Below the pieces are notes generated by a model. It was not told where the DNA came from and searched no databases. It worked only from the letters and a program-made list of their open reading frames with translations. Position numbers and translations under genes: made by a program. From positions 1,550,501 through 1,614,500 of the forward strand of contig OY282457.1 in the NCBI GenBank assembly GCA_958296235.1: a DNA stretch of 64,000 nt, given 5' to 3'. Source of the stretch: an uncultured Candidatus Binatia bacterium. GTDB lineage: Bacteria; Desulfobacterota; Binatia; Bin18. Below are positions 35,066-51,738 of the stretch, in pieces. Each line of letters starts with the position of its first letter. Positions within the stretch are counted from its first letter, which is position 1.

Positions 35066-36151
35066 GTGAGATTTGGCCTTTTCTACCAGTTACCGTGCGC
35101 GGATACTCAGACACAGGCAGCGCGCTATCAAGATACCATTGAACAGATCGTTCACGCTGAGCAGCTGGGTTTCGATTGTGCCTGGCTGGCGGAGCTGCAC
35201 TTTTACAAGCACTTCTCGATTATGTCGTCGCCCCTGATTGTGGCCACGGCTATTGCCCAACGGACCCAGCGCATTCGTCTGGGCATTGCCGTCAACCTGC
35301 TGCCGCTCTGGCACCCGGTCCGCAACGCCGAAGAGGGCGCGACGGTCGATCTGTTGAGTAACGGCCGCCTGGAGTTCGGCGTCGGACGCGGGACGATCCC
35401 GCTCCATTTTGCCGGCTTTGATCGCTCCCGGGACGACAGCCGGGAGCGCTTTGAAGAAAGCCTGGAGATCATCAAACGGGCCTGGACGAATGAGTCGTTT
35501 TCCTATGACGGCAGCTATTATACAATTCCAGAAACCAGTGTCGTACCCAGACCGCTGCAACAGCCCCATCCGCCCATCAGGATCGCCGCAAACAGCCCGG
35601 AGACCGCGGTGTTTGCCGGGAAAATCGGCCATCCGATCTTTGTGGCCTCGGTCACCAATCCCCTGCCCAAGATGTTTGAGCAAGTCGCGACCTATCGCCA
35701 CGCCTGGGACGAACACACCCCCCATGACGGACAGGCCACCCATCCCATGTATCCACCCCAGGATGTCTCAACCATGTTTTTTATGCATCCGGGTGAAAGC
35801 CTGGAGCAGGTCCGCCAGACGCTAGAGCCGAGTATTCGACATTACTTCGGGAGCGTCCTGGGCATGATGACAAGCGGCACAACAAAACAAGAAGACATGC
35901 AGTCGTATCGCTATACCGCGGAGATCCGCAAAAACCTGGAGAGCATCACCTTTGAGCAAGTCGTCGACAGCATGGCCATTTTCGGCCCCGCCGACGCCTG
36001 TGTGGACCGGATTCGCCAGCTCCATCAAAAGCTCAACATGAACGAGCTGATCTGCTGGTTTAATCCGGGCGGCCTGGTGCCACATGAGCAGGTCAAGGCC
36101 GCCATGACCCGTTTTGCGCAGACCGTCATTCCTGAGGTCAAAGATCTCTAG
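35066..36151 (+). CDS. LLM-class flavin-dependent monooxygenase (3)
   Basis: The protein of about 361 residues is of the alkanal monooxygenase alpha-like LLM group. It begins VRFGLFYQLPCADTQTQAAR, has FDCAWLAELHFYKHFSIMSS, RIRLGIAVNLLPLWHPVRNA and RLEFGVGRGTIPLHFAGFD. The start is GTG 35066 with AGGAGGG at 35054-35060; the frame is open upstream but unlike the family. It leads the plus-strand group with two amidohydrolases, a SnoaL-like protein and hydantoinase genes and may oxidise the starting compound. FMN rather than F420 is suggested by the luciferase-like N-terminus, but this is not certain. Confidence 0.87.
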   Translation: MRFGLFYQLPCADTQTQAARYQDTIEQIVHAEQLGFDCAWLAELHFYKHFSIMSSPLIVATAIAQRTQRIRLGIAVNLLPLWHPVRNAEEGATVDLLSNGRLEFGVGRGTIPLHFAGFDRSRDDSRERFEESLEIIKRAWTNESFSYDGSYYTIPETSVVPRPLQQPHPPIRIAANSPETAVFAGKIGHPIFVASVTNPLPKMFEQVATYRHAWDEHTPHDGQATHPMYPPQDVSTMFFMHPGESLEQVRQTLEPSIRHYFGSVLGMMTSGTTKQEDMQSYRYTAEIRKNLESITFEQVVDSMAIFGPADACVDRIRQLHQKLNMNELICWFNPGGLVPHEQVKAAMTRFAQTVIPEVKDL

Positions 36152-36245
36152 GCCAAAAATCCGTTTTGTCTTGGGTCAGAAATACGCTAGATAAGAGCAA
36201 TACTGCTTAACACCAGGTTTGAGAACACTATAGAGGAGGGTCGCT

Positions 36246-37520
36246 ATGGGACGTATATTTTTTCGCGGGGTGAATCTGATTGACGGTGAGCATAAGCCAC
36301 AACCCAACTCCACCGTGGTGGTGCAGGGACAGCGCATCAAGGCGGTTGGGAAAAATGGCAATGTGCCCAACCCCACAGCCAGGGATGTGGTGTATGATCT
36401 CGGTGGGAAATCCCTCATGCCGGGTATGGTCCAGTGCCACTATCATGTCGCCTACGCCAATGTCGGCGACATGAACGATATTGACATGAAATATCCGCCG
36501 ACCTATTTGACGCTCATCGCGGCCAAGAATGCGGAGCTGCTGCTGAGTTGTGGCTACACGGGGGCGGCTGGCGCGGGCACGATGCACAACATCGATGTCA
36601 CGCTGAAAAAGGCCATTAACTCAGGCATGATTCCGGGCCCGCGGTTTCTGGCCTGCGGCCGGGATGTGGTAACCACCGGCGATTCGGTCGATTGTCATCC
36701 CAGCTTCTGGAAGATGGGCATGGACGGCCTGGCCCGCGTGTGCGACGGACCGGACGATTTTCGCAAGGCCGTGCGTGAAGAAATCAAGCTGGGCGTGGAT
36801 ATCATTAAGCTCTACCCGACCGGCGGACATGGCCTGATGTGGGACGAGGACACCATGACCATGAGCCAGGACGAAATCGATGCGGCAACTACAGCCGCCC
36901 ATGAACGGGGCCGGAAAATACGGGGCCACATCATTTCCAAGAAAGGCATCCTGGCCGCCCTCAAAGCCGGCATGGACGTCATTGACCACGGCGACCGGAT
37001 GGACGACGAGTGCATTGAGGGCATGCTCGAACAAGAGACTTTTGTGGTGCCGAGCTTATACTTCCCGTGGAAGGTCGTCGAGGAAAAACGCCGCACGGGT
37101 TCGAGTGAGTGGGGCGGTGTTGACAGCATGGAGCGGAATCTGGAGCACTCGTATGAGGTCCTGCCCAAGGCCAACAAGGCCGGGGTGAAACTGGTCATCG
37201 GGGACGATTTCGGTATCGCCGCCATGCCCCACGGCGAGTACGCCTGCGAGTTGGAAGCCTATGTCAAAGGTGCCGGCATCCCGGCCAACGAAGTCCTGCG
37301 CTGGGCCACCAAGAACGGCGCAGAGTTGCTCGGTCGGGGCGATGAGCTGGGGACCATCGAGCCGGGCAAGATCGCCGACCTCCTCATCGTCAAAGGCAAT
37401 CCGGCCAGAGACATCACCATCCTGCAGGACAAAAAGAACCTGCACGCCATCATGAAGGAGGGGGAGTTTTACCGGAACGAGTTGACCCCAAGCCGAGCCA
37501 GACTCCAGAAAGCCGCGTAG
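36246..37520 (+). CDS. Amidohydrolase (imidazolonepropionase/prolidase-like)
   Basis: The 424-residue metal-dependent amidohydrolase has a small beta-sandwich plus TIM barrel. Metal-binding motifs are visible in order: MVQCHYHVAYANV (HxH), the Lys of DIIKLYPTGGHGL, RKIRGHIISK, DVIDHGDRMDDE, and the final Asp in VIGDDFGIAAMPHG. The closing segment GTIEPGKIADLLIVKGNP is typical of cyclic-amidohydrolase, imidazolonepropionase-like proteins. ATG 36246 follows GAGGAGGG. A strong terminator follows, so it may be transcribed with the LLM gene upstream rather than the genes downstream. The substrate is unknown. Confidence 0.9.
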   Translation: MGRIFFRGVNLIDGEHKPQPNSTVVVQGQRIKAVGKNGNVPNPTARDVVYDLGGKSLMPGMVQCHYHVAYANVGDMNDIDMKYPPTYLTLIAAKNAELLLSCGYTGAAGAGTMHNIDVTLKKAINSGMIPGPRFLACGRDVVTTGDSVDCHPSFWKMGMDGLARVCDGPDDFRKAVREEIKLGVDIIKLYPTGGHGLMWDEDTMTMSQDEIDAATTAAHERGRKIRGHIISKKGILAALKAGMDVIDHGDRMDDECIEGMLEQETFVVPSLYFPWKVVEEKRRTGSSEWGGVDSMERNLEHSYEVLPKANKAGVKLVIGDDFGIAAMPHGEYACELEAYVKGAGIPANEVLRWATKNGAELLGRGDELGTIEPGKIADLLIVKGNPARDITILQDKKNLHAIMKEGEFYRNELTPSRARLQKAA

Positions 37521-37545
37521 TCGCCAGCAGGCAATACACTTCCAG

Positions 37546-37577
37546 AGGGGCACGGCCTGCCGTGCCCCTTTTTGTTT
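37546..37577 (+). terminator. Strong rho-independent terminator
   Basis: AGGGGCACGGC (37546-37556) and GCCGTGCCCCT (37559-37569) form a near-perfect 11-bp inverted repeat followed by TTTTGTTT. It ends the transcript of the imidazolonepropionase-like gene and separates it from the next amidohydrolase. Confidence 0.9.
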
Positions 37578-37636
37578 GTGTCCAGGCTTTTCAAGTCGTC
37601 CGTCTTTCGCTACGAGAAGAGGAGGAGAGGAAGCGT

Positions 37637-38770
37637 ATGAGCCGGATTGTTGACGCGGACAGCCATTTCATGGAGCCGCTCGATTTATGGGAGCGCTATA
37701 TTGAACCGGAGTTTCGAGAGCGCTGCCTGCGCTTCACCCAGGACCCGCAGACCGGCACGCATGCCATGCTCGTCAACAAATCAAAACGGATTCGTGGGGT
37801 GGGTGAGTTCAGCATGGAAGACATGCTTGGCGTCGGCGTGGGCTACGGCCAGAAGGAGGCCGGCTCCGGGCTGGGTTCTTTTGACTTTTCCAGTGCGTTT
37901 AATAATACCCTCGAAGACATGGACCGGCGGATCGCCTATTTGGACAACGAGGGCTTTGAATGCCAGTTTATCTATCCGACGCTGGGGCTGATGTGGGAGG
38001 GCCAGGTGACCGACCCGGATTTGGCCGCCGCCCATTGTCGCGCCTATAACACCTGGACGCTGGAGGTGTGCGCCAATCACCGCAGCCGGCTGTATCCGGT
38101 CGGACATGTTTCTCTGCGCCACCCCGCGCACGCCGTGCGCGAGATCGAACGCCTGGCCAAGGCCGGCGTCCGCACGATCTTTGTGGGCGCCCTGCCGGTT
38201 GACGGCAAGAGTTTCGGCAGTCCGGATTTTGACCCGGTCTGGGACGCCGCCCAGCATCACGACCTGGCGGTCGGCATCCATCTGGTCGTACACCGTAACT
38301 ACCTGGGTCACGACTGGTATACGGACCGCCGACCGGGCTTCATGTTCCTGAGTATGAATGGCATTCAGGACCCCCGCATGGCCCTCACCACTATGGTCTA
38401 CGACGGGGTGTTTGAGCGCTTTCCCAGGCTCCGCGTCGCCACTATTGAATCCGCCAGCGGCTGGGTCGTGGAATGGCTCGACCGCCTCGATTACCGCTAC
38501 AGCTATATGGGCCACTCGTGCCAGATGGAGCGGCCGGCCAGCGAGTATTTTGAGCGGAACATCTGGATTGCGGCCGACCCGGATGAGCGCCTGCTGCCCT
38601 ATATGGTTGAGTTGCTCGGCGACCACAAGTTTTTTATTGGCTCGGACTATCCGCATGCGGAGGGCTTTACCGATCCGGTTGCCAAAGCGCGGAACGCCTT
38701 ACACCGCCTGCCGGCGGCCTCGGTCAACAAAATATTGGGAGAAAACGCGGTCCAGTTTTTTGGGCTCTAA
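37637..38770 (+). CDS. Amidohydrolase family 2 protein (ACMSD-like TIM barrel)
   Basis: The 377-residue protein is of the amidohydrolase-2 (PF04909-type) family that includes decarboxylases and lactone or ring hydrolases. The N-terminal metal motif reads RIVDADSHFMEPLDLW, the centre has GIHLVVHRNYLGHDW, and the C-terminal Asp ligand lies in FIGSDYPHAEGFTD. ATG 37637 has GGAGGAGAGGAAGCGT just before it. A SnoaL-like gene follows after 19 bp. Proteins of this type with flanking SnoaL and hydantoinase genes appear in catabolic islands; whether this one hydrolyses or decarboxylates is not clear. Confidence 0.88.
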   Translation: MSRIVDADSHFMEPLDLWERYIEPEFRERCLRFTQDPQTGTHAMLVNKSKRIRGVGEFSMEDMLGVGVGYGQKEAGSGLGSFDFSSAFNNTLEDMDRRIAYLDNEGFECQFIYPTLGLMWEGQVTDPDLAAAHCRAYNTWTLEVCANHRSRLYPVGHVSLRHPAHAVREIERLAKAGVRTIFVGALPVDGKSFGSPDFDPVWDAAQHHDLAVGIHLVVHRNYLGHDWYTDRRPGFMFLSMNGIQDPRMALTTMVYDGVFERFPRLRVATIESASGWVVEWLDRLDYRYSYMGHSCQMERPASEYFERNIWIAADPDERLLPYMVELLGDHKFFIGSDYPHAEGFTDPVAKARNALHRLPAASVNKILGENAVQFFGL

Positions 38771-38789
38771 ACCAAGTCAGGAGGGAACT

Positions 38790-39260
38790 ATGAATCTCGA
38801 AGACATCGCCCAACGCGTCCAAACGCTCGAAGACGTCGAGGCTATAAAAAAGCTCAAGGCCCGCTACTGTGCCGGGGCGGACGAGCGTGATGAAGACAAG
38901 TTTGTCGGCTGCTTCACGGAAGATGCCGTCTGGGACGGCGGCAATTTCGGCCACTATGAGGGCAAGGCAGCCATTCGGGAATTTTTTGGCACTATTCCTC
39001 AGGTCCTGTCATTTGCCATCCACTACGTGATGAATCCCCGCATTGAGGTCAACGGGGACAAGGCGACCGGCTATTGGTATCTGCTGGAGCCCTGCACCAT
39101 GCTCGAAGGCGGCGAACAAGCGGTCTGGGGGATAGCCAAATACGAAGAAGAATACGTCCGGGTGGACGGCGAGTGGAAAATACGCAACCTGATCCTCGCT
39201 CCAGAATGCTGGACCCCGTTTGAACAAGGCTGGGTCAATCAGCAGTTTCTCGAGCAGTAG
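38790..39260 (+). CDS. SnoaL-like (NTF2-fold) protein
   Basis: The 156-residue protein has a nuclear-transport-factor-2-like cone fold, as in SnoaL polyketide cyclases, scytalone dehydratase and ring-hydroxylating dioxygenase beta subunits. Visible signatures are VEAIKKLKARYCAGADERDED, FTEDAVWDGGNFGHYEG and YVRVDGEWKIRNLIL. Such proteins are cofactor-free lyases, isomerases or binding subunits. ATG 38790 has AGGAGGG 4-10 bases before it. It is sandwiched between the amidohydrolase-2 gene and the hyuA-like gene, so it probably acts on an intermediate of the same pathway. Confidence 0.85.
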   Translation: MNLEDIAQRVQTLEDVEAIKKLKARYCAGADERDEDKFVGCFTEDAVWDGGNFGHYEGKAAIREFFGTIPQVLSFAIHYVMNPRIEVNGDKATGYWYLLEPCTMLEGGEQAVWGIAKYEEEYVRVDGEWKIRNLILAPECWTPFEQGWVNQQFLEQ

Positions 39261-39302
39261 TCAGAGGGGCGCGCCCCCGGCAGGCAGCGCCCATAACAGA
39301 CC

Positions 39303-41378
39303 ATGACAACCTACAGCTTAGGCGTCGACGTCGGCGGGACCTTCACCGATCTCGTGTGCGCGGACGAGGCCGGACAGACGCAGACCGAGAAAGTCCTGAC
39401 AACTGGAGAGAACCAGGCCCTGGGCGTGCTCAACGGCATCGGCAAGCTGGCCCTCAAATACGGACTGGCCGAACAGGATTTTCTCAGCCGGATAGCGGTT
39501 GTTGTCCACGGCACAACGGTCGCCACCAACACCATGCTGGAATACACCGGCGCCACCACCGGGCTGATCACCACCGCCGGCTTTCGCGACACCATAGAGA
39601 TCCGTCGCAACTATAAAGAGGCGGCTTTTGATATTCACCTCCCGGCCCCGTATCAGATCGTCCCGCGCCGCCGGCGTCTCGGCGTGACCGAGCGGATTGA
39701 TTACGCCGGTCAGGTCGTCAAACCCCTGGCGGAAGCCGAGGTCCGCGCAGCCGTACAGCGCCTGGCGGACATGCAGGTCGAAGCCATAGCCGTGTGTTAT
39801 CTGTTTGCGTTTTTGAATCCCGTTCACGAGCTTCGGACGCGTGCGCTTATTCGGGAGCGCCTGCCCGAGGTCCATATCTCACTGTCGTCAGAGGTTCTGC
39901 CCCAGGTCCGCGAATTCGAGCGCCTGAGCACAACCCTGGTCGATGCCTATGTCACCCCGCGTTTACAAAAGTATGTGGAGCGGCTGGACACGGAGTTTCG
40001 TCAGCGCGGATTTCAGGGCGACATCTTCATCATGCAGGGCAATGGCGGCATCGTGGGCCTGGAACAGGCCGGCGCCCACGGCGTCCAGGCCCTCCTGTCC
40101 GGGCCGGCCAGCGGCGTGGTGGCCGGCGCGTATCTGGGCCAGGCGTCCGGCTTTAAGGATGTCATCACCGTTGATATGGGGGGCACGAGCTTCGACGTCT
40201 GCCTGGTGCAGGACGGGCGACCCAAAACCGGCACCGATCAATGGATGAGTCGCTACCGGATTGCAGTGCCGTTTATTGATATTCACACCATCGGCGCTGG
40301 TGGCGGCAGTATCGCCTGGGTCGATGAGGGAGGCGCGCTGCGCGTTGGCCCACAGAGCGCGGGCGCCCATCCGGGTCCGGCGTGTTATGGCTTTGGCGGC
40401 CAGGAGGCCACGGTCACGGATGCGGACGTGGTACTGGGTTATATCAGCCCCGAGTCTTTCTTGGGCGGCGCAATGCGGCTGGACGCTGAGGCCGCCCGAC
40501 AGGCAATCGAGACCAGGGTTGCTCAGCCGCTGGAGATGAGCCTGCTGGAAGCGGCCAGCGGTATTTTTCGCATTGTCAATAACGGTATGAGCAATAGCGT
40601 TCGGCGGGTTTCTCTGGCAAAAGGCTATGACCCACGTGACTTCGCGCTGACCGCGTTCGGCGGCGCCGGGGCCATTCATGCCGGGGCGCTGGTCGAAGAC
40701 CTTGGCATTCAGACCATTCTGATTCCCAAAGGCACAGCGCCCGTCCTGTGCGCCCTGGGCGACCTCTTGTCCGACCTGCGGGTGAGTCGGGTCCGGAGTT
40801 TCTATGCGCGTGGGAGCGCCCTGGACCTGGAGGCCATGAACGCCCAGTTCCGGCATATGCGCGAGGAAGCCCTGGGGTTGTTCGGGAGTCAGCAGCGCCA
40901 CCTGGGCCAGACTTTTGCCCAATTCTCGCTTGAGATGCGCTATATCGGCCAGACACACGAAGTGACGGTTCCCGTTGCCAGGCAGGCAGAACAGCTCAAT
41001 ACCACAGATATAGCCATGACTATCCAGGGCTTTCACAATCTGCATGAACAATTATACACCTTTCAGAAACCCGAGGACGAAGTCGAAATTCTCAATATCC
41101 ACCTCGACCTCGTTGGACACAGAGCAAAACCGAGCTTGCAAACAGCCCCCCGGGGCAGTCGGGCGGCTCAGGTTGCATTGCAGGGCACTCGGCCGGTCTA
41201 TGCGGCCTCGGCCCAAGACTATATTGAGACGGATATTTACAATGGAGAGCAACTCGCGCCGGGGCATTGCGTTGTCGGCCCGGCCATCATCGAAGAGGCC
41301 CGCACCTCCATCGTCCTTTTTGCCGGCCAGCGGGCAACCCTCGACGAGCATCTCACCTATGTGATTGAGGTCGAGTGA
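39303..41378 (+). CDS. Hydantoinase A / oxoprolinase family (ATP-dependent, HyuA)
   Basis: The 691-residue protein is of the hydantoinase/oxoprolinase/acetone carboxylase alpha family. The first nucleotide-binding motif is YSLGVDVGGTFTDLVCADE, then HGTTVATNTMLEYTGAT and, at about residue 285, VDMGGTSFDVCLVQDG in the ASKHA-like second phosphate loop. It also contains GPQSAGAHPGPACYGFGG, a family signature. With HyuB it hydrolyses or carboxylates cyclic amides (hydantoins, oxoproline) or ketones using ATP. Its stop is one base from the next ATG, so it is in one operon with two HyuB genes. Confidence 0.93.
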   Translation: MTTYSLGVDVGGTFTDLVCADEAGQTQTEKVLTTGENQALGVLNGIGKLALKYGLAEQDFLSRIAVVVHGTTVATNTMLEYTGATTGLITTAGFRDTIEIRRNYKEAAFDIHLPAPYQIVPRRRRLGVTERIDYAGQVVKPLAEAEVRAAVQRLADMQVEAIAVCYLFAFLNPVHELRTRALIRERLPEVHISLSSEVLPQVREFERLSTTLVDAYVTPRLQKYVERLDTEFRQRGFQGDIFIMQGNGGIVGLEQAGAHGVQALLSGPASGVVAGAYLGQASGFKDVITVDMGGTSFDVCLVQDGRPKTGTDQWMSRYRIAVPFIDIHTIGAGGGSIAWVDEGGALRVGPQSAGAHPGPACYGFGGQEATVTDADVVLGYISPESFLGGAMRLDAEAARQAIETRVAQPLEMSLLEAASGIFRIVNNGMSNSVRRVSLAKGYDPRDFALTAFGGAGAIHAGALVEDLGIQTILIPKGTAPVLCALGDLLSDLRVSRVRSFYARGSALDLEAMNAQFRHMREEALGLFGSQQRHLGQTFAQFSLEMRYIGQTHEVTVPVARQAEQLNTTDIAMTIQGFHNLHEQLYTFQKPEDEVEILNIHLDLVGHRAKPSLQTAPRGSRAAQVALQGTRPVYAASAQDYIETDIYNGEQLAPGHCVVGPAIIEEARTSIVLFAGQRATLDEHLTYVIEVE

Positions 41379-41379
41379 T

Positions 41380-42543
41380 ATGGCCTCCTCCCTCGACCCA
41401 GCCAAAGAAGTGAGCGCGGCCATAGGGGCGACCCTCGGACGGGCGCGGCCAGCGCTCCTGCGCCGCCTGGCCTCTTTAGCCTTAATCGATCGTCGGCATG
41501 TCAGCGTCGCACTCGCAACAGCAGACGGCCGCGTGGTGGGGATAGACCCAGCGGCGCGCCTGGGCATTGTCCGGGCGGTGGCCCGGACGGTCTGTGACGC
41601 CTTTTCCGACAACATCGCTGAGGGAGACGCCATCCTCACCAACGACCCGTTTTCGGGCGGGACGCATATTCAGGACCTGACGCTGCTGCGTCCCCTCTTT
41701 GTTGCCGGGCAACTCGTCGGCTGGGCCATTGTCCAGGCGCCTCTGCCCGACCTGGGAGGGATGGCTCTTGGCGGATATTATCCTTTTGCCCTCGAAATCT
41801 GGGCGGAGGGTATTCGGGTCACGCCAGTCAAGCTCTACCGCAAGGGTGCTCTGCAACGCGACGCGCTCACCATGCTGACCCTCAACAGCCGGCTGCCGCA
41901 TCTGGTCGGAAAAGACGTGCAGCATATGGTCGATATTCTGGAGTTAGCCAATACGGCCCTGGCCGTCCTGGCCGCCCGCCAGACTCCAGCGGTCTACACC
42001 CAGGCCCTTGACCGTATCATCACCGCCACTGCCGCTCGAACTCAGGCGGCCCTGTCTGAGCTGCCGCCCGGCGAGTGGCGGGGGGAGAGTGGGCCCATAC
42101 ACTGCTGTCTGGAAGAAGCGGATTTGCGCGTCACAGTCCGTCTGACCGTTTCAGACCAGTCGGTCGCACTCGATTTCTCCGGCAGTTCCCCCGCAGCCAA
42201 AGGCTTTGTGAATACCACCGCAGCCACTACTCAGGCCGCGGCAGCGCTTCCTTTTTTCGCTCTCTGGCCCTCCCTGCCTGCCAATGAGGGTATATTCCAG
42301 CGCCTCCACATATCAATTCCTGACGACACTTTTTTACACGCCAAGCTACCGATGTCTGTGGGCTGGTCGCCCTACCAACCGAGCCAGGCTGTCGTTCAGG
42401 CCGTTACGGCCGCCCTCGGTCAGACGCACCAGGCCCTGCCGCCCGCAGAGCAGTTGGCCGCGCCGGTCGCCTCACCGCCATTGCCTTTTGCTGTCACCGG
42501 GTGTGGCCGGCCCGGCTGTCCGTTCCCGACGCAGCCAGACTGA
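41380..42543 (+). CDS. Hydantoinase B family protein, C-terminally short
   Basis: The 387-residue protein is of the HyuB family, recognisable from ILTNDPFSGGTHIQDLTLL, DLGGMALGGYYPFALEIWAEG and LDFSGSSPAAKGFVNTTAA. Full-length HyuB is typically 500-650 residues, and the next gene encodes 579. This chain stops after the segment FQRLHISIPDDTFLHAKLP and a Pro-rich tail, lacking the C-terminal third. It may be a truncated paralogue or a naturally short subunit. ATG 41380 overlaps HyuA's end region with a 1-bp spacing. It has an unusually Ala/Leu-rich composition compared with the second HyuB. Confidence 0.85.
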   Translation: MASSLDPAKEVSAAIGATLGRARPALLRRLASLALIDRRHVSVALATADGRVVGIDPAARLGIVRAVARTVCDAFSDNIAEGDAILTNDPFSGGTHIQDLTLLRPLFVAGQLVGWAIVQAPLPDLGGMALGGYYPFALEIWAEGIRVTPVKLYRKGALQRDALTMLTLNSRLPHLVGKDVQHMVDILELANTALAVLAARQTPAVYTQALDRIITATAARTQAALSELPPGEWRGESGPIHCCLEEADLRVTVRLTVSDQSVALDFSGSSPAAKGFVNTTAATTQAAAALPFFALWPSLPANEGIFQRLHISIPDDTFLHAKLPMSVGWSPYQPSQAVVQAVTAALGQTHQALPPAEQLAAPVASPPLPFAVTGCGRPGCPFPTQPD

Positions 42544-42576
42544 AGGACTAGAATAAGGGAAGACCCCTCCCCCTGG

Positions 42577-42599
42577 CCCTCTCCCCTTGAGGAAGAGGG
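42577..42599 (+). repeat. Imperfect hairpin of CCCTCT...AGAGGG type
   Basis: CCCTCT (42577-42582) pairs with AGAGGG (42594-42599), with CC/GG also pairing inside. It lies 27 bp before the second HyuB start. C-rich/G-rich sequence of this kind is also seen near 45190-45260, so it may be part of a dispersed repeat family. Confidence 0.4.
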
Positions 42600-42625
42600 A
42601 AACGACGGAGCAAAGGAGAACACGC

Positions 42626-44365
42626 ATGATCGACCGTATTACCGCCCTGGTAATCAAAGATTCTTTAGAGGCCATCTCTGAAGAAATGAGCAAAACGGTT
42701 GAGCGGACAGCCGTGCACCCGCTGTTTAACGAGGTGCACGACTACTCGACCGGGGTGTTCTTTTATGATGGCAGCGATGTGCGCCTGGTCGCCCGAGCCA
42801 CGGCGATTCCCGTCCATATCTTCGCCTCCATCCTGTCGGTTGAAGCCCTGATGGAGTCGTTTCAGGACGACCTGCACGAGGGCGATATCGTCATGCTGAA
42901 CGACCCGTATTACGGCGGCACGCATCACGCCGACTGGACCGTCATGAAACCCGTCTTCTTTGACGGCAAGCCGGTGCTGTTTCCCTCGGTCCGCGCTCAC
43001 ATGGCCGATTTTGGCGGGCCGGTGGCGGGCGGCTATAACCCCGAAGCCAAAGATATCTGGCAGGAAGCCCTGCGTATTCCGCCGATCAAACTCTTTGAGA
43101 AGGGCGTCCTGCGCCAGGATGTACTCGACTGGATCCTGGCCAACTCTCGCATTCCCAATGTGTTGCGGGGCGATCTGGCCGCCATGTTCGGGGCGTGCAA
43201 TCTGGCCGAGCAGCGTGTCCATGCCTTGTTCGCCAAGTATGGGGGGGATGTGGTCAATGAAAGTATCGAATACACGCTCGACTATGCGGAAAAACGCTTT
43301 CGGGCCGAGGTCGCCAAGTGGCCGGACGGAGAATACCGGGGCAAGGCGACTTTGGACCACGACAGTCTGGGCAACTATGATGTCGAAGTGCAAACAACTG
43401 TCACCATCAAGGGCTCTGACCTGAGCGTTGACCTGAGCGGCTCAAGCCCGGAAACGCCCGGCTTTGTGAATAGTCCGTTTGGCAATACGGCCTCGTGGGT
43501 CTATACCGCCCTGTGTTCGGTGCTGCCCGAAGACATCCCGATCAACTCCGGCGTGTTTCGAGCTGTGACCATCACCGCGCCGGAAGGCACGGTCGTGAAC
43601 CCGCTCCCGCCCGCCCCGTGCATGTTCAGCACAGTCGTCATTGGCGGAGATGTCGGCACGGCCACCATGCAGGCATTAGAGCAGGCCATTCCCGACAAAG
43701 TCGGCTCGGTGTCGCTCAACTACTGTCTATGCACCACCTACGGGCATGACTCGCGGTACGGCGAAATGTTTGTGACCATTGAGTACGGGAATACGCTCGT
43801 GGCGGCGGGCGGGACCCAGGGTCAGGATGGCTGGGGCGGCTGGCCGGCCCCCATGTGCGGACTGATTTACTCCACTGTTGAGATGAGTGAGATTCAATTC
43901 CCCTTTTTCTACCATCAGTATGAATACGTTGGGGATACGGCCGCCCCAGGCCAGTGGCGCGGGGTGCCCGGTTTTGCCATGAAGCGGGAAAGTGTCCGGG
44001 ACACGTCCATGATCAACGTGGCGCTGACAGGCGTGCGCCACTCCTCGCCCGGCTTTGCCGGTGGAAAGAACGGGGCGAGCAGTCGCTATGTCCTGAACTG
44101 GGGCACGGAGCATGAGGAAGAAGTCCTGGAGTCAGCCGCGAATCGCCCCTCGCCGCCGGGCTCGATTATCGCCACCTTCAAGGGCGGCGGGGGCGGCTGG
44201 GGCAACCCCTTTGCCCGCGACCCGCAAAAAGTTCTCAATGACGTGCTGGATGAATTTATCACCCTGGACAGCGCCGAGCGTGACTACGGCGTCGTGATCC
44301 AGCCCGACAGCATGACCATCGATACCGACGAAACCCTGCGCCGCCGGGCACTCGCCGCAAAGTAA
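42626..44365 (+). CDS. Hydantoinase B / oxoprolinase family (HyuB), full length
   Basis: The 579-residue protein has the complete HyuB layout: IVMLNDPYYGGTHHADWTVM and AHMADFGGPVAGGYNPEAKD near the N-terminus, VDLSGSSPETPGFVNSPFGN in the middle and the glycine-rich C-terminal segment IIATFKGGGGGWGNPFARDP typical of acetophenone carboxylase and hydantoinase B subunits. ATG 42626 follows AAGGAG. It would be the catalytic partner of HyuA (39303-41378) and form an alpha-beta complex. In ATP-dependent hydantoinases the pair opens cyclic imides; in related carboxylases it carboxylates ketones. Confidence 0.93.
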   Translation: MIDRITALVIKDSLEAISEEMSKTVERTAVHPLFNEVHDYSTGVFFYDGSDVRLVARATAIPVHIFASILSVEALMESFQDDLHEGDIVMLNDPYYGGTHHADWTVMKPVFFDGKPVLFPSVRAHMADFGGPVAGGYNPEAKDIWQEALRIPPIKLFEKGVLRQDVLDWILANSRIPNVLRGDLAAMFGACNLAEQRVHALFAKYGGDVVNESIEYTLDYAEKRFRAEVAKWPDGEYRGKATLDHDSLGNYDVEVQTTVTIKGSDLSVDLSGSSPETPGFVNSPFGNTASWVYTALCSVLPEDIPINSGVFRAVTITAPEGTVVNPLPPAPCMFSTVVIGGDVGTATMQALEQAIPDKVGSVSLNYCLCTTYGHDSRYGEMFVTIEYGNTLVAAGGTQGQDGWGGWPAPMCGLIYSTVEMSEIQFPFFYHQYEYVGDTAAPGQWRGVPGFAMKRESVRDTSMINVALTGVRHSSPGFAGGKNGASSRYVLNWGTEHEEEVLESAANRPSPPGSIIATFKGGGGGWGNPFARDPQKVLNDVLDEFITLDSAERDYGVVIQPDSMTIDTDETLRRRALAAK

Positions 44366-44453
44366 GAAAAAATAAACAGCGCAATAAAAGCAGGATACAG
44401 TAGACCTTCTTTCCGAGGCTCAGCAAATTCGTTATCTCAGAAAACAAGCGGGA

Positions 44454-44660
44454 TTGACCCAGACCGCGCTCGCAAAAAAGGCAGGCATGGCCCGCCCGAA
44501 CCTGACCCGTCTCGAAGCCGGTCGCTGTCGTCCTGCCTTAGAAACGCTTGAGCGGGTCGCCGCCGCTCTGGGCCAGCCGGTGAGCCGGCTTGTTTCCGCT
44601 CATGGAACTTCGCAGAAAGAAAGACAGAAGAAGGCGCCTCGGAGAACCAGAGCGGCATAG
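44454..44660 (+). CDS. XRE-family HTH regulator with no canonical start (possible remnant)
   Basis: The translated stretch MTQTALAKKAGMARPNLTRL begins inside a Cro/C1-type HTH and continues to EAGRCRPALETLERVAAALGQ, then a basic tail. The sequence upstream in the same frame (44403-44453) reads DLLSEAQQIRYLRKQAGL, which completes the normal first helix, but no ATG, GTG or TTG occurs between the stop at 44385-44387 and TTG 44454. The gene therefore either starts at an unusual codon (ATT at 44427), uses TTG inside the domain, or has lost its start by frameshift. It lies between HyuB and a VOC gene and may once have regulated them. Confidence 0.6.
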   Translation: MTQTALAKKAGMARPNLTRLEAGRCRPALETLERVAAALGQPVSRLVSAHGTSQKERQKKAPRRTRAA

Positions 44661-45889: not shown

Positions 45890-45912
45890 GGGGCGGCGTT
45901 GGCCGTCGCCCC
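45890..45912. terminator. Hairpin between convergent VOC and prpF-like genes
   Basis: GGGGCGGC and GTCGCCCC can pair (one G-U) around a short loop at 45890-45912, directly at the ends of two convergent genes. There is no clear U-tract, so it may act only as an RNA-end stabiliser. Confidence 0.4.
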
Positions 45913-47105
45913 TACACTTCTCCGCTCTCTATTCCCTCAAACCAGACGGCGCTCTCCAGATATTTCTGTGGCACCAGAATCGCCCCTTCCATAATACGCC
46001 GCGCCGTCCGCTTCGTTGTCACCCGCTCGGCGTACCACTCCCCGCCCCGGCGTGAGACCGTTGCCCCGACCGCCATGACGCCGGCGGGATGCCCGATTCG
46101 GATGTCGTGTGTGGCCGTCCGCCGGGCCACTGCGTGCACGACCGTGCCTTCAACCTGAGCGGCAAGAGCGGTACACATCGCGACCGTTCCCGGAAAGGTG
46201 CGATGCGTGTTCCGCATGGAAATCGCGCGGGCCACCAGGTCCAGACTTTCCGCCTCCAGCCTTTTCCCACTACTTGCGGTATACGCTGCTGCTGGGGCGA
46301 CCAGCACGACCTTGGGCGTATGTTGAAACTTCTCGTGAGCCTCCTCAAGACTCGGGGTGAGGCCAAGCAGAATAGCCGATTTGCACCGAATCTCTTCTAA
46401 GGTCTGCTGCAAGGCCGGCGCTGCATCGAGTGTGGGCGCGAGCTGCGTGGCGTCGGCCCCCAGTTCGCCGGCGCGAACGAAGACGGTCGGAATCGTGGCG
46501 TCCACAACCGAGATCGTCACAATACGTGAGTCCGCCAGCTCGCACCGCTGGCGGGGCAGGCCGGTGGGCAACAACCCTCCGCCGAGCGAGCCGCCAGGGT
46601 CCGGGTATTCCAGGGTGATACACGCCCCTGGAGCAGGTACGCCATCAATACGATACGCGCCTTCAACCGCAGCCTGGCCGGCGCAGACCGGGACACGGGC
46701 GATATAGCGTTTCCCCGTATTCGTCGAGAACACCCGGACGGTGGTCACTGGCTCTAGCGCAGGAACAATACCCTCATCAATGGCAAACGGACCGACCGCC
46801 GCCGACATATTGCCGCAGGTCCCGCTCCAGTCGATGTGTGGCGTCCGCACGTCAACCTGGCCAAAGGTAAAGGTGACGTCGCTGTCCGACTGCGGACTGC
46901 GGCCCACAATCACGACTTTGCTGAGAGAAGAAATCCCACCGCCGAGGCCGTCTATCTGACGCCCGTGGACATCGGGGCTGCCCAGGGCCGCCAGGATGAT
47001 GCGTTCACGCACCGGCAGCGAATAGGGAGCCAGTACATCTTCTCGGAAGCAGACCGCCCGGCTGGTCCCGCCCCGCATAAAAACCGCCGGTATTTTCGTT
47101 TGCAT
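45912..47105 (-). CDS. PrpF family isomerase
   Basis: The 397-residue protein is of the PrpF family (diaminopimelate-epimerase-like fold), whose members isomerise unsaturated tricarboxylates: PrpF in the methylcitrate cycle and 4-oxalomesaconate tautomerase (GalD-type). Signatures are KIPAVFMRGGTSRAVCFRE, GLGGGISSLSKVVIVGRS, DWSGTCGNMSAAVGPFA and, near the end, AVARRTATHDIRIGHPAGVM. The SGTCGN Cys is the usual active-site cysteine region. It is last in a five-gene minus-strand operon, 6 bp after a Tat-exported LLM gene. The substrate is probably an unsaturated di- or tricarboxylate. Confidence 0.9.
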   Translation of the reverse strand: MQTKIPAVFMRGGTSRAVCFREDVLAPYSLPVRERIILAALGSPDVHGRQIDGLGGGISSLSKVVIVGRSPQSDSDVTFTFGQVDVRTPHIDWSGTCGNMSAAVGPFAIDEGIVPALEPVTTVRVFSTNTGKRYIARVPVCAGQAAVEGAYRIDGVPAPGACITLEYPDPGGSLGGGLLPTGLPRQRCELADSRIVTISVVDATIPTVFVRAGELGADATQLAPTLDAAPALQQTLEEIRCKSAILLGLTPSLEEAHEKFQHTPKVVLVAPAAAYTASSGKRLEAESLDLVARAISMRNTHRTFPGTVAMCTALAAQVEGTVVHAVARRTATHDIRIGHPAGVMAVGATVSRRGGEWYAERVTTKRTARRIMEGAILVPQKYLESAVWFEGIESGEV

Positions 47106-47111
47106 ACGCTC

Positions 47112-48089
47112 CTACGCCGGCCGGAATGCCGGCATGACTTCTTTGGCAAAGCGACGGAAGGACGCCATATCGTAGTCGGGATACATCGACACAATGAAAT
47201 ACTGCACGCCAGCGTCCGCATACGCCTGGACCGCGGCTCTGATAGCGTCAGGCGACTGTTTGAGCTGCTCAGCATTGAGCGATGTCGACTTCTGTATCTC
47301 GGCGGGGTCGCGTCCGACCTCTTTGCAGATAGCGTCAAATTTTACCGCGATCTTTTTGGCCGCTGCGGCCCCTCCCTGACGCACAAAGAAATGCCAGATG
47401 TCGGCATGGCGAGCGACCAGCGGCTGGACGACCTTGGGTCCCATTCCACCAATCAAAATCGGCGGATAGGGTTTCTGGAGCGGCTTGGGCTCGAACGGGG
47501 CATCTTTGACCTGATAGTATTTGCCCGCATACGTTGTCTTTTCCTGGGTGAACAGCATTTTGATGAGTTCGACCGATTCGACGAGCCGGCGCGCCCGCCC
47601 GCCCGGCGTGTAAAACGGGATTCCAAACGCCTCGTGTTCCAGCTTAAACCAGCCGGCGCCCATCCCCAGAATCAGGCGTCCGCCACTCACATGATCGACC
47701 GTTGCCGCCATTTTGGCGAGCAATGCCGGATTACGATACGTGTTGCCAGTGACGAGCAGGCCGGTTTTCAACCGCTTCGTCTGAGCGGCAAGCGCGGCGA
47801 GCAAGGTCCAGCCTTCCAAACACGGGCCGGCTGGATCGGAAAAGATCGGCAGAAAGTGATCAAAACCAAAAGCGCTGTCATAGCCAAGTTCATCAGCTTC
47901 CAGCCAGACGTCTTGCACTTGACTGTAGGGTACATGCTGCGGCGGGGTTTGCACTCCGAACCGGAGCCGACCGCTCGCTTGTGCCGCGGCGGGGCGCGGC
48001 TGAGTAAAATTGCCGGCTAATGCGGCTGCGGTCACTACTGCGCTGGTACTCTTGAGAAAGGTCCGACGCGATATCTGCTCTTTCGCCAT
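47112..48089 (-). CDS. LLM-class flavin/F420-dependent oxidoreductase with Tat signal (4)
   Basis: The 325-residue protein starts with a twin-arginine leader: ISRRTFLKSTSAVVTAAALA then FTQPRPAAAQA, with a likely cleavage after AQA. The mature part is a luciferase-like TIM barrel: RFGVQTPPQHVPYSQVQDVW, GYDSAFGFDHFLPIFSD, RLKTGLLVTGNTYRNPALLA and RLILGMGAGWFKLEHEAFGI. It would be exported folded with its flavin or F420 bound. ATG 48089 is the start with AGGACACC upstream. It stands between another LLM gene (43 bp before) and the prpF-like gene (6 bp after). Confidence 0.88.
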   Translation of the reverse strand: MAKEQISRRTFLKSTSAVVTAAALAGNFTQPRPAAAQASGRLRFGVQTPPQHVPYSQVQDVWLEADELGYDSAFGFDHFLPIFSDPAGPCLEGWTLLAALAAQTKRLKTGLLVTGNTYRNPALLAKMAATVDHVSGGRLILGMGAGWFKLEHEAFGIPFYTPGGRARRLVESVELIKMLFTQEKTTYAGKYYQVKDAPFEPKPLQKPYPPILIGGMGPKVVQPLVARHADIWHFFVRQGGAAAAKKIAVKFDAICKEVGRDPAEIQKSTSLNAEQLKQSPDAIRAAVQAYADAGVQYFIVSMYPDYDMASFRRFAKEVMPAFRPA

Positions 48090-48132
48090 ACGGTGTCCTC
48101 CACTTGGTATCACGACTGCGTTGAGCCGTCCG

Positions 48133-49020
48133 TCACAGTTTGGCCATCACCTCGTTGGCAAAGGCCTCCATCTGCGGGTACAGGTCGGTCTGAAATTTCC
48201 GGCGCGGCACCCAGCCTGGGGCAAACACGAACAGGCGGTGTACCCCGGCGTCTTCAAACTGTTTCACCGTATCCAGCGTCGGCTGAACGCCGGGCTCAAG
48301 CCCCACCGTAATTTCAAATTGAGAGAAATCCCGCCCGGCCTGCCGGGTCAATTCTCTGAGTTGGCTCACATACGGTTCGACGCTCTTGGGCGTATAGCGA
48401 ATTCCGCACCAGCCGTCGGCCAATTCAGCCGCGCGCTTGAGGGCGGCCCTGCTCTCTCCTCCAAAAACGAGCGGCGGGCAAGGGTCCTGGACGGGCTTGG
48501 GATTAAATCCGACCGGCTTGAAATCGTGAAATTTCCCTGAAAACCGCGGAGTCTCTTCAGTCCACAAGGCTCGCATGACTTTGACTGCCTCGCGCGTCCG
48601 CGCGGCCCGGTCACGAAACGGCATGCCCACCGCCTCAAACTCTTCTTCGCACCAGCCCACGCCAATGCCAAAAATTACCCGGCCCTGCGACAAGACGTCC
48701 AGGCTCGCCACCGCTTTAGCCACCGCCAGCGTATTGCGGAGTGGGAGCACAAAGACGCCGGTTCCAAGCTTAATCGTTGTGGTATGCGCCGCCACAAAGG
48801 ACAGGGCCACAAACGGGTCGTGCAAATTGACTCCCGGCCCACCGGGAAATTTGCCGTCCGCAGAACCCGGATAGCGGGCTTGCATGTCAACCGGCACAGC
48901 CAAATGTTCGGGAATCCAGACAGATTCATAGCCGAGGGTTTCTGCCTGTTGAGCCACTTGGGTCAAGGGCTCGGGGCGCACGGTTGACCCGCTGCCAACG
49001 CCGACTAATGCGAATTTCAT
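48133..49020 (-). CDS. LLM-class F420-dependent oxidoreductase (5), TIGR03619-like
   Basis: The 295-residue protein has the LLM barrel without a signal peptide. It begins KFALVGVGSGSTVRPEPLTQ, with YESVWIPEHLAVPVDMQARY and IKLGTGVFVLPLRNTLAVAK, RVIFGIGVGWCEEEFEAVGM and PLVFGGESRAALKRAAELAD, which fits the TIGR03619 F420-dependent subgroup. It is followed by the Tat-type LLM and PrpF genes and preceded by upp and an M20 deacylase. ATG 49020 has GAAAGGAAGAAT upstream. The reaction is unknown. Confidence 0.88.
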   Translation of the reverse strand: MKFALVGVGSGSTVRPEPLTQVAQQAETLGYESVWIPEHLAVPVDMQARYPGSADGKFPGGPGVNLHDPFVALSFVAAHTTTIKLGTGVFVLPLRNTLAVAKAVASLDVLSQGRVIFGIGVGWCEEEFEAVGMPFRDRAARTREAVKVMRALWTEETPRFSGKFHDFKPVGFNPKPVQDPCPPLVFGGESRAALKRAAELADGWCGIRYTPKSVEPYVSQLRELTRQAGRDFSQFEITVGLEPGVQPTLDTVKQFEDAGVHRLFVFAPGWVPRRKFQTDLYPQMEAFANEVMAKL

Positions 49021-49059
49021 GTATTCTTCCTTTCTCCTGGCGTCACGCCCGGTCTGACT

Positions 49060-49698
49060 TCAGCCGCCATGCGGCGTCCCGAAAATCCGATCACCCGCAT
49101 CGCCAAGGCCGGGGACGATATAGCCAATGTCGTTGAGGCGGTCATCAACGGCTGCCGTATACACGTCAACGTCCGGGTGGGTGGCCGCCAGGCGCGTCAG
49201 CCCTTCCGGGACAGCGACCAGACAGATTGCCCGTATAGACCGGCAGCCGGCTTTTTTTAATATATCAACTGTCGCGCGGCAGGTGCCGCCGGTTCCCAAC
49301 ATCGGATCAATAATAAGCGCGGTCCGCTCACGCAGGCGGTCAACCAGCTTTTCAAAATAGGGTACGGGCTCCAAAGTTTTTTCATTCCGATACATCCCAA
49401 CAAGACTCACTTCGATGTGGGGGATAATCTGAAGCACACCGGGCAAGAGGCCCAGGCCGGCCCGTAAAATTGGGACAGCCGTCAACAGGTCCACTCTCAG
49501 ATGATCCACCTCGACCGCGCCGGCCCAGCCCTGGATCATTTTCCTCTCAGTCGCAACATCCCGCAGCGCTTCATATGCGAGCAGCGCCGCGATTTCTGCG
49601 CTCAGCTCACGAAAGAGCTTGGGCCCGGTTTCGGCCTGTCGCAGCAAACCTATTTTATGCCGAACCAAAGGGTGGCGTATCTCGTGCACCGGCATCAT
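49060..49698 (-). CDS. upp: Uracil phosphoribosyltransferase
   Basis: The 212-residue enzyme joins uracil and PRPP to give UMP. Visible are [34 protein letters not shown], the PRPP-binding loop [20 protein letters not shown] and the uracil-binding end [16 protein letters not shown]. All are standard for bacterial Upp. Two adjacent ATGs (49698 and 49695) follow AGGAG; the second has the better spacing. Its start is 6 bp from the stop of an M20 deacylase gene. Its place in a catabolic operon, rather than near uraA or pyr genes, is notable. Confidence 0.97.
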
Positions 49699-49704
49699 TC
49701 GCTC

Positions 49705-50898
49705 CTAGGACCGCTCAGCCATACAGAGTTTTTCAATGACAGACAGAATACGGCCGGTCCCGTTCTCGAAGGTCTCTCGCCGTATACTCTCATTGGGCTG
49801 GTGGGCCTGGTCAAGGTCGCCAGGCCCACAGATCAGAGACACGATCCCGCCGGAGGCAAACTGACAGCCGTCGGTCGCAAACGGCGCCCCGCCGCTGGTC
49901 TGTTGGCCGGCCACCTCAAACAATGCGCCTTCGAGGGGGGTTTCCCGAGGCGAAAACAGCTGCGGCACCACGAGCGGCTTCGAGAACTCGACACTGGCCT
50001 GATGTGAGGAGCCGCTGAAGTCAAGCAGGTCAAGGGCCCGGACCCGACGGGCAATCTCGTGCAGGCAATCAAGCGGGTCGGCTTTGGGCAGGGGCCGGTA
50101 GCTGACCTGAATCGTGCATTGCTCGGCAATCATATTGCCCGCCGTCCCGCCGCGCACCAGTCCGAAGTTCAGCGTCGGATAGGGTGAGTCCGGGAACAGC
50201 TCGGCAAATTCGGCAGACGGGGCGGCGCGCAGTTCGGCCTGATACTGGCCAATTGCGTTGATGACCTTGCCGGCAACCGCAATCGCGTTCACTCCGGTCT
50301 CGGGTGTACTGCTGTGGCCGCCCAGGCCGCGGACGCTAATCGAGAAAACCGCCACCCCCTTATGGGTATGAAAAACCTTGTAGGAGGTTGGCTCACCGAT
50401 CCAGGCCAGGTGGGGCTGAGGGATATCACCCAACAGGTCGGACAGCTCGGGCACGAGGCGTGCCGCTCCCAGACAGCCCACTTCCTCATCTGCGGTAAAC
50501 AAAAAGACGACTGGGCGTGTGAGCCGCTTGAGGTCAAGGGCCGCCGCGGCATCCACACACTGCGCCAAAAAAATTTTCATATCCGAGGCGCCGCGCCCGT
50601 AGACACGATCATCTTCCACGCCAAGGGCCAGCGGATCGCGCGTCCAGCCGGGCTGGTCGAGAAACGGGACCGTATCCACATGGCCGGAGAGAATCAGGCC
50701 GTCCGGCTCGGGCGGACCGGCAAACGCAATCAGATTGGCTTTGGGCACCCCGGCGACTTCGGTTTGCTGCAAGGCAACCTGAAAGCCATGCTCCTCCAAA
50801 TGATTGCCGAGGTAGGCCATAGCTTCGACATTGCTCTTTTGACTCACGGTGTCATAGCCAACCAAACGGCCGGCAAGTTCTTGCAGATAGTCACTCAT
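49705..50898 (-). CDS. M20 family deacylase (acetylornithine deacetylase ArgE-like)
   Basis: The 397-residue two-zinc hydrolase is of the ArgE type: DGLILSGHVDTVPFLDQPGW, VYGRGASDMKIFLAQCVDAA, VVFLFTADEEVGCLGAARLV and, in the lid domain, SVRGLGGHSSTPETGVNAIA. The metal and catalytic residues are all in place. ArgE removes acetyl groups from acetylornithine, and relatives act on N-carbamoyl or other N-acyl amino acids. The start is ATG 50898 with GAAGGGG upstream. It is first in the operon with upp, two LLM genes and PrpF, and diverges from pdxJ. A true arginine-pathway role is doubtful given that context. Confidence 0.9.
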   Translation of the reverse strand: MSDYLQELAGRLVGYDTVSQKSNVEAMAYLGNHLEEHGFQVALQQTEVAGVPKANLIAFAGPPEPDGLILSGHVDTVPFLDQPGWTRDPLALGVEDDRVYGRGASDMKIFLAQCVDAAAALDLKRLTRPVVFLFTADEEVGCLGAARLVPELSDLLGDIPQPHLAWIGEPTSYKVFHTHKGVAVFSISVRGLGGHSSTPETGVNAIAVAGKVINAIGQYQAELRAAPSAEFAELFPDSPYPTLNFGLVRGGTAGNMIAEQCTIQVSYRPLPKADPLDCLHEIARRVRALDLLDFSGSSHQASVEFSKPLVVPQLFSPRETPLEGALFEVAGQQTSGGAPFATDGCQFASGGIVSLICGPGDLDQAHQPNESIRRETFENGTGRILSVIEKLCMAERS

Positions 50899-51000
50899 AG
50901 CGTTATGACCCCTTCCAGTTTGATACGGGAAACATAATACTAGAAAAATCGAGACGAGCCGTACAGCCCTGTGAATTGAGTAACAACAATCGGAACCGCC

Positions 51001-51738
51001 ATGATCAAACTCAGCGTCAACGTCAATAAAATCGCCACTCTGCGCAACGCCCGGGGCGGCGATCAGCCGAATGTCGTCCGGGCCGCCCAAACCTGCATCG
51101 CCGCCGGCTGTCACGGCATCACCGCGCATCCACGCCCGGACGGTCGCCATATTCGCTATCAGGACGTGAGAGACCTCGCCGCCCTGCTCGTCGGCCATCC
51201 TGGCGTTGAATTCAATATCGAGGGCTATCCTTCGGCTGAGTTTCTGGACCTGGTCTGCCAGGTGCGACCAACCCAGTGCACCCTGGTCCCCGACCCGCCC
51301 GACGCGCTTACCTCAAACGCCGGCTGGAACCTCAGCGGCGATGTCGCTTGGCTCGGTCAGGTCTTGCGGCGTTTACACGACAACGGCATCAGAACCAGTC
51401 TTTTTCTTGAGCCGAATAGCGACCAGGTGAGACGCGCAAAAGAGCTCGGCGCAGACCGGATTGAACTCTATACGGAACGCTATGCCCGTCTGTTTGGCAG
51501 TGCCGAGCAAGCCCAGGTCTATGCCGCGTATCACACCGCAGCCCAAACGGTCCAAGAAGTTAGTCTGGGTCTGAATGCCGGACACGATCTCAACTTGGAT
51601 AATCTGCCTTACTTTGCGGAACATTTACCCGGTTTGCTCGAAGTGTCCATCGGCCACGCCCTGATTTGCGACGCGCTCTACATGGGGCTGGTATCAAGCA
51701 TACAAGCCTATCTGAACGCGCTCGGGTATAAGGCGTAG
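51001..51738 (+). CDS. pdxJ: Pyridoxine 5'-phosphate synthase
   Basis: The 245-residue enzyme makes pyridoxine phosphate from deoxyxylulose 5-phosphate and 3-amino-2-oxopropyl phosphate. It has LSVNVNKIATLRNARGG, the family motif GITAHPRPDGRHI, CTLVPDPPDALTSNAGW and the C-terminal VSIGHALICDALYMGL. Full-length. ATG 51001 has little Shine-Dalgarno match. It is divergent from the M20 gene; no acpS or recO is adjacent as in some other bacteria. Confidence 0.96.
   Translation: MIKLSVNVNKIATLRNARGGDQPNVVRAAQTCIAAGCHGITAHPRPDGRHIRYQDVRDLAALLVGHPGVEFNIEGYPSAEFLDLVCQVRPTQCTLVPDPPDALTSNAGWNLSGDVAWLGQVLRRLHDNGIRTSLFLEPNSDQVRRAKELGADRIELYTERYARLFGSAEQAQVYAAYHTAAQTVQEVSLGLNAGHDLNLDNLPYFAEHLPGLLEVSIGHALICDALYMGLVSSIQAYLNALGYKA

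Follow-up and report, generated by a model that had tools for sequence, protein, structure and literature searches.

The 3′ half of a seven-gene cluster from a Candidatus Binatia bacterium appears, on balance, to encode a member of the hydantoinase/oxoprolinase/caprolactamase family: an ATP-dependent cyclic-amide hydrolase with three subunits, one of which, a short HyuB, serves as a non-catalytic pseudo-beta. The gene for HyuA (alpha) is followed by genes for two different HyuBs, the first short and the second full-length; we refer to the three as the triad. HyuA and HyuB genes are common and often annotated at the family level only. If our reading is correct, a natural complex containing a beta subunit that has neither metal site nor barrel would separate the parts of HyuB devoted to assembly or tunnelling from those devoted to chemistry.

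The window (the whole 64,000-nucleotide stretch analyzed, G000:C1:1550501-1614500) lies within a single-contig genome of 4.62 Mb that contains 14 matches each to HyuA and HyuB. The source organism belongs to the Binatota, a mostly sponge-associated group whose order Bin18 has been tied to sponges (PMC8262859). An earlier note, made from the letters of this DNA, described seven plus-strand genes between positions 35066 and 44365, and open reading frames and Pfam matches bear out every one of them. The genes are separated by gaps of ~1–116 bp:

35066..36151, + strand: LLM-class (luciferase-like) flavin/F420-type monooxygenase, 361 aa (Bac_luciferase PF00296, E 4.5e-64)
36246..37520, + strand: AH1, metal-dependent hydrolase, 424 aa (Amidohydro_1 PF01979, E 1.2e-34)
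37637..38770, + strand: AH2, 377 aa (Amidohydro_2 PF04909, E 1.1e-24)
38790..39260, + strand: SnoaL_4-domain protein, 156 aa (PF13577, E 1.5e-34)
39303..41378, + strand: HyuA (alpha), ATP-binding, 691 aa, triad subunit 1 (PF01968, PF05378, PF19278)
41380..42543, + strand: short HyuB (putative pseudo-beta), 387 aa, triad subunit 2 (PF02538, E 1.7e-69, profile positions 22-351 of 519)
42626..44365, + strand: full HyuB (beta), 579 aa, triad subunit 3 (PF02538, E 2.1e-143, profile positions 1-519 of 519)

The coordinates of AH2, SnoaL, short HyuB, and full HyuB begin at the more likely start codons (37637, 38790, 41380, and 42626, respectively). The best named relative of AH1, the Caulobacter Xaa-Pro dipeptidase model NF051886, scores 228 bits, which is below its cut-off of 500. 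Scans of the window for tRNAs and Rfam families found nothing.

HyuA contains Hydantoinase_A (PF01968, E 2.3e-96) together with its N and C domains in Pfam. Two phosphate motifs (DVGGTFTD at residue 9 and DMGGTSFD at 291) and the adenosine motif (GAHPGP at 354) are intact; these are the ASKHA-type motifs required in the hydantoinase/oxoprolinase/ketone carboxylase family. Because HyuA keeps all three, ATP-dependent activation of a carbonyl is expected. Full HyuB retains the metal ligands Asp-His-Asp-His and spans the entire family profile, barrel included. The closest characterized comparison is CapAB, the caprolactamase of Pseudomonas jessenii (PDB 6YRA), to which HyuA (chain A, E 6.4e-162) and full HyuB (chain B, E 1.1e-94) are related over their full lengths and with which they share the ATP motifs and metal ligands. 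Both proteins fall short of the NCBIfam cut-offs for caprolactamase equivalogs, scoring 717 and 394 bits where 1000 is required. The vicinal Cys410-Cys411 lining the pocket of CapB corresponds to a single Cys in full HyuB, in a part of the 6YRA alignment that is gapped. Given the intact HyuA motifs and full-HyuB ligands, ATP-dependent hydrolysis of a cyclic amide, which the earlier note had proposed, would be the best family-level reading. No feature of the sequences that discriminates among hydantoin, oxoproline, diketopiperazine, and lactam as substrate was found. A ureidoglycolate-lyase-like protein (PF04115) is encoded upstream of the triad of a relative from another genus (G015; L048:4115-4645), which hints weakly at substrates of the ureido or hydantoin type.

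Comparison of the region with relatives by tblastn revealed that the seven genes comprise two modules. The order LLM-AH1-AH2-SnoaL-HyuA-short HyuB-full HyuB is kept at ~81–99% identity in three sister genomes (G001, G003, and G004); in three others (G002, G005, and G006), contig ends interrupt the region. Thus, a single HyuA accompanied by two distinct HyuBs is a conserved feature, and so are the SnoaL and AH2 neighbors that the earlier note had called fixed, but the latter hold only inside the genus. In other genera, the triad alone is in place (G007: HyuA 74%, short HyuB 58%, full HyuB 88% identical; G009: 75%, 49%, and 87%). HyuA (75%) and short HyuB (58%) precede a contig end in G012, and in G015 they are 74% and 54% identical, full HyuB is cut by a contig end, and the flanks are short. 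Orthologues of LLM, AH1, AH2, or SnoaL adjoin the triad in none of these four genomes within the flanks present.

The 5′ half has a distribution of its own. Nearly every member of the family has an AH1 orthologue, mostly 69–79% identical, and LLM orthologues (~64–67% identical) lie beside or near AH1 in other genera; across the family, an MFS transporter and/or an M20 peptidase is often encoded nearby. LLM and AH1 also occur in G008, G011, G013, and G014, where no short-HyuB orthologue was found and the best matches are ordinary HyuBs (E 1e-27 to 1e-31), an absence that is less sure in G013 and G014, which are 84% complete. AH2 and SnoaL say little about a specific pathway because both come from multicopy families (23 AH2-type and 5 SnoaL-type matches in the window’s genome at the limits used). 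Judged by gene order, LLM-AH1 is a separate, family-wide module that is linked to the triad only in the genus of the window.

These findings bear on the idea that all seven genes form a single route, in which the LLM enzyme oxidizes a ring that the two amidohydrolases and HyuAB then open and hydrolyze. The tight spacing of the genes on one strand and their conserved order within the genus are consistent with such a route, as is a different LLM gene (27% identical) 3′ of the triad in G007. We consider it doubtful, however, in view of the separate occurrence of the two halves in other genera, the four genomes with LLM and AH1 but no short-HyuB orthologue, and the abundant paralogue families from which AH2 and SnoaL are drawn. 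The earlier note’s view of the genes as one fixed pathway is therefore not upheld: the triad and LLM-AH1 are found separately in other genera. Scattering in relatives, which it had regarded as telling against its reading, is present in part, for each half holds together and the whole set does not. A “catabolic island” that a single genome suggests can thus prove to be two modules joined in one genus only.

The 3′ flank of the cluster differs between the window and its sisters. An amidase gene (PF01425) lies 3′ of full HyuB in G001, G003, G004, and G006. At window positions 44366-44660, ~2.1 kb has been lost relative to the sisters; the amidase is gone, and an XRE-type regulator gene has lost its first half, with only the HTH half (~44397-44660) remaining. 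The nearest amidases left in the window’s genome are 41–44% identical. Beyond this point, a minus-strand run at 45912-51198 (M20 peptidase, uracil phosphoribosyltransferase-like protein, two LLM-type proteins, and a PrpF-like isomerase) is kept in the sister genomes. Full HyuB of G003 is in two frames (L041:11085-12862), probably a frameshift or an assembly error in that MAG.

We now return to the triad and its unusual second subunit. Short HyuB is one intact open reading frame of ~386–398 aa in all eight complete copies, which come from four genera of one family. CapB binds its metal through Asp41, His99, Asp102, and His124, and the corresponding alanine mutants are inactive (PMC8453981). An alignment of ten short-HyuB orthologues, two of them cut by contig ends, reads His-His-Asp-Pro at these positions in all ten; the 91 other HyuBs examined without exception read (Asp/Glu)-(His/Gln)-Asp-His. 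Short HyuB covers domains 1 and 2 of CapB and stops after the second, and the same partial profile coverage is seen in all orthologues examined. It has no counterpart of the polyglycine-helix barrel (CapB 358-531) or of the C-terminal domain (533-581); over half of the pocket residues listed for CapB lie in these two parts. An AlphaFold model built from 79 sequences (mean pLDDT 91.9) resembles 6YRA chain B, 5L9W, and 9H03, the TM score on the query being ~0.8. By its sequence, short HyuB is a relative of the family and not a catalytic beta subunit.

Many full-length HyuBs of the phylum (e.g., L081, L082, L087, L089, and L095) carry Gln instead of the ligand His99; they number 24 among the 101 HyuBs tabulated. 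Such D-Q-D-H proteins were considered as triad members and rejected, since their readable short flanks look like plain, apparently ordinary HyuA-HyuB pairs. A 366-aa “short” match from another family (L080 in G169) was also set aside; its frame breaks a few codons before a contig end and it is not the short form.

Several residues never vary among short HyuBs but are seldom seen in other HyuBs, including R21, H40, P121, T148, C243, W329, C375, and C380; H241 is likewise invariant among short HyuBs, and C375 and C380 sit in a conserved tail, GCGRxxCPF. His40, His96, and Asp99 might still bind a metal. These residues raise the question of whether short HyuB has acquired an active or metal site of its own, formed by His40, His96, and Asp99 or by the conserved cysteines and His241, for example a structural zinc site in the role of the zinc-finger gamma subunit of acetone/acetophenone carboxylase. 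His40 never varies in the short form and is new to it, H241, C243, C375, and C380 are likewise constant, and the gamma subunit of acetophenone carboxylase (Apc) bears a Cys4 site (PMC5214803). Nevertheless, no sequence relation of short HyuB to Apc-gamma was seen, and we judge a new site of this kind rather improbable.

Short HyuB is under purifying selection, which is weaker than that acting on HyuA and full HyuB. Pairwise Nei-Gojobori comparisons within the genus of the window gave dN/dS values of 0.20–0.29 for short HyuB, 0.09–0.10 for HyuA, 0.02–0.03 for full HyuB, and 0.05–0.12 for LLM, AH1, AH2, and SnoaL; compared with its triad partners, short HyuB changes several times faster. The intact frames and these ratios led us to reject a pseudogene or a frameshift as the origin of the short form. 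That the protein is nonetheless a decaying, functionless remnant, which its faster evolution and its retention of only two of the four domains and only two of the four metal ligands might suggest, is very improbable given a frame that is intact in every complete copy across four genera, a dN/dS well below 1, and new invariant residues such as Cys243, Cys375, Cys380, and the GCGRxxCPF tail.

The three-subunit hydrolase with a non-catalytic pseudo-beta would operate as follows. HyuA would use ATP to phosphorylate, and thereby activate, the substrate carbonyl, and full HyuB would hydrolyze the activated intermediate at its Asp-His-Asp-His metal site, as in CapAB. Short HyuB, a degenerate beta paralogue that presumably no longer performs the hydrolytic step, would most likely fill a beta position, either paired with full HyuB at the beta-beta contact or bound to HyuA, and thereby shape assembly, tunnel access, or regulation. 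The CapAB tetramer is built as CapA-CapB-CapB-CapA, with the CapB-CapB contact at residues 129-174. The equivalent stretch of short HyuB (126-171) ranks at or near the top of the protein for conservation: 31 of its 46 residues are invariant, and only 6 of 342 segments of short HyuB, this one included, reach its score. Ordinary HyuBs also conserve this stretch best, although less clearly, so its retention is not specific proof of beta-beta pairing. We infer a physical association of the three subunits, an asymmetric beta-beta′ arrangement, the reaction, and the class of substrate. It is tempting to go further and propose an obligately asymmetric hydrolase, arisen in one Binatia family, in which the catalytic beta is partnered by a pseudo-beta that has lost both its barrel and its metal site; we offer this stronger version tentatively, as a possibility short of an even chance.

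The known architectures of the family are alpha-beta (hydantoinase, oxoprolinase, and caprolactamase), alpha-beta-gamma (acetone carboxylase), and alpha-alpha′-beta-gamma-epsilon (acetophenone carboxylase) (PMC5214803). CapAB consists of CapA and CapB only, whereas the triad adds short HyuB. Apc (PDB 5L9W) shows that a diverged second core subunit can exist in one complex of this family, as alpha and alpha′ (PMC5214803). However, it is the HyuA-like subunit that is duplicated in Apc, which also has gamma and epsilon subunits; in the window, the HyuB-like subunit is duplicated and one copy is degenerate. Acetone carboxylase (AcxABC; PDB 5M45 and 5SVB) likewise has three subunits, two of them HyuA- or HyuB-like, but its third is the small gamma common to Apc (zinc-finger type in Apc) and not a HyuB paralogue. 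A small gamma subunit of the acetone/acetophenone carboxylase type is absent from the seven genes and ten scanned neighbors. The literature that we searched contained nothing relevant on a truncated or doubled HyuB, which agrees with the earlier note’s failure to recognize the pairing. As far as that literature goes, a duplicated, degenerate beta is new to the hydantoinase/ketone-carboxylase family. Its spread is narrow, one family of Binatia.

An exact-pattern scan of 84,980 species genomes, which could miss distant orthologues, identified close short-HyuB orthologues only in Binatota-type MAGs. Among 395 sampled genomes of the phylum, the window’s own was the only one with an orthologue, and a plasmid collection yielded matches below 60% identity only, ordinary HyuBs as far as annotated. 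Short HyuB, or the triad, may serve to mark a trait in relatives among the Binatota, some of which are found with sponges.

A second triad in G001 (L121) suggests how the set arose. Its genes, HyuA-HyuB1-HyuB2, have the same order as those of the window, and the products are 54%, 33%, and 46% identical to HyuA, short HyuB, and full HyuB, respectively. HyuB1 (530 aa) keeps the ligands Asp-Gln-Asp-His and a worn, degenerate barrel; short HyuB, in contrast, has no barrel and has lost two ligands. Orthologues of HyuB1 are present in all six sister genomes but not in the window’s own genome, and none was found beyond the six sisters among 148 genomes of the class. In a quick maximum-likelihood tree, for which the program warns of two long branches meeting, HyuB1 groups with the short HyuBs (SH-aLRT 99.5) and HyuB2 with the full HyuBs (SH-aLRT 99), which indicates that the three-subunit set is older than the truncation. 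The shared gene order and the 54% identity of the two HyuAs, compared with at most 42% for any other HyuA compared, point the same way. A HyuA-HyuB1-HyuB2 set was probably already in place when the two triads diverged, and the first HyuB degenerated later. Two other unusual sets occur in the window’s genome (L122, G000:C1:244000-258000, and L123, G000:C1:4298000-4312000); one is HyuA-HyuB-HyuB-HyuA and the other has one HyuB with two HyuAs.
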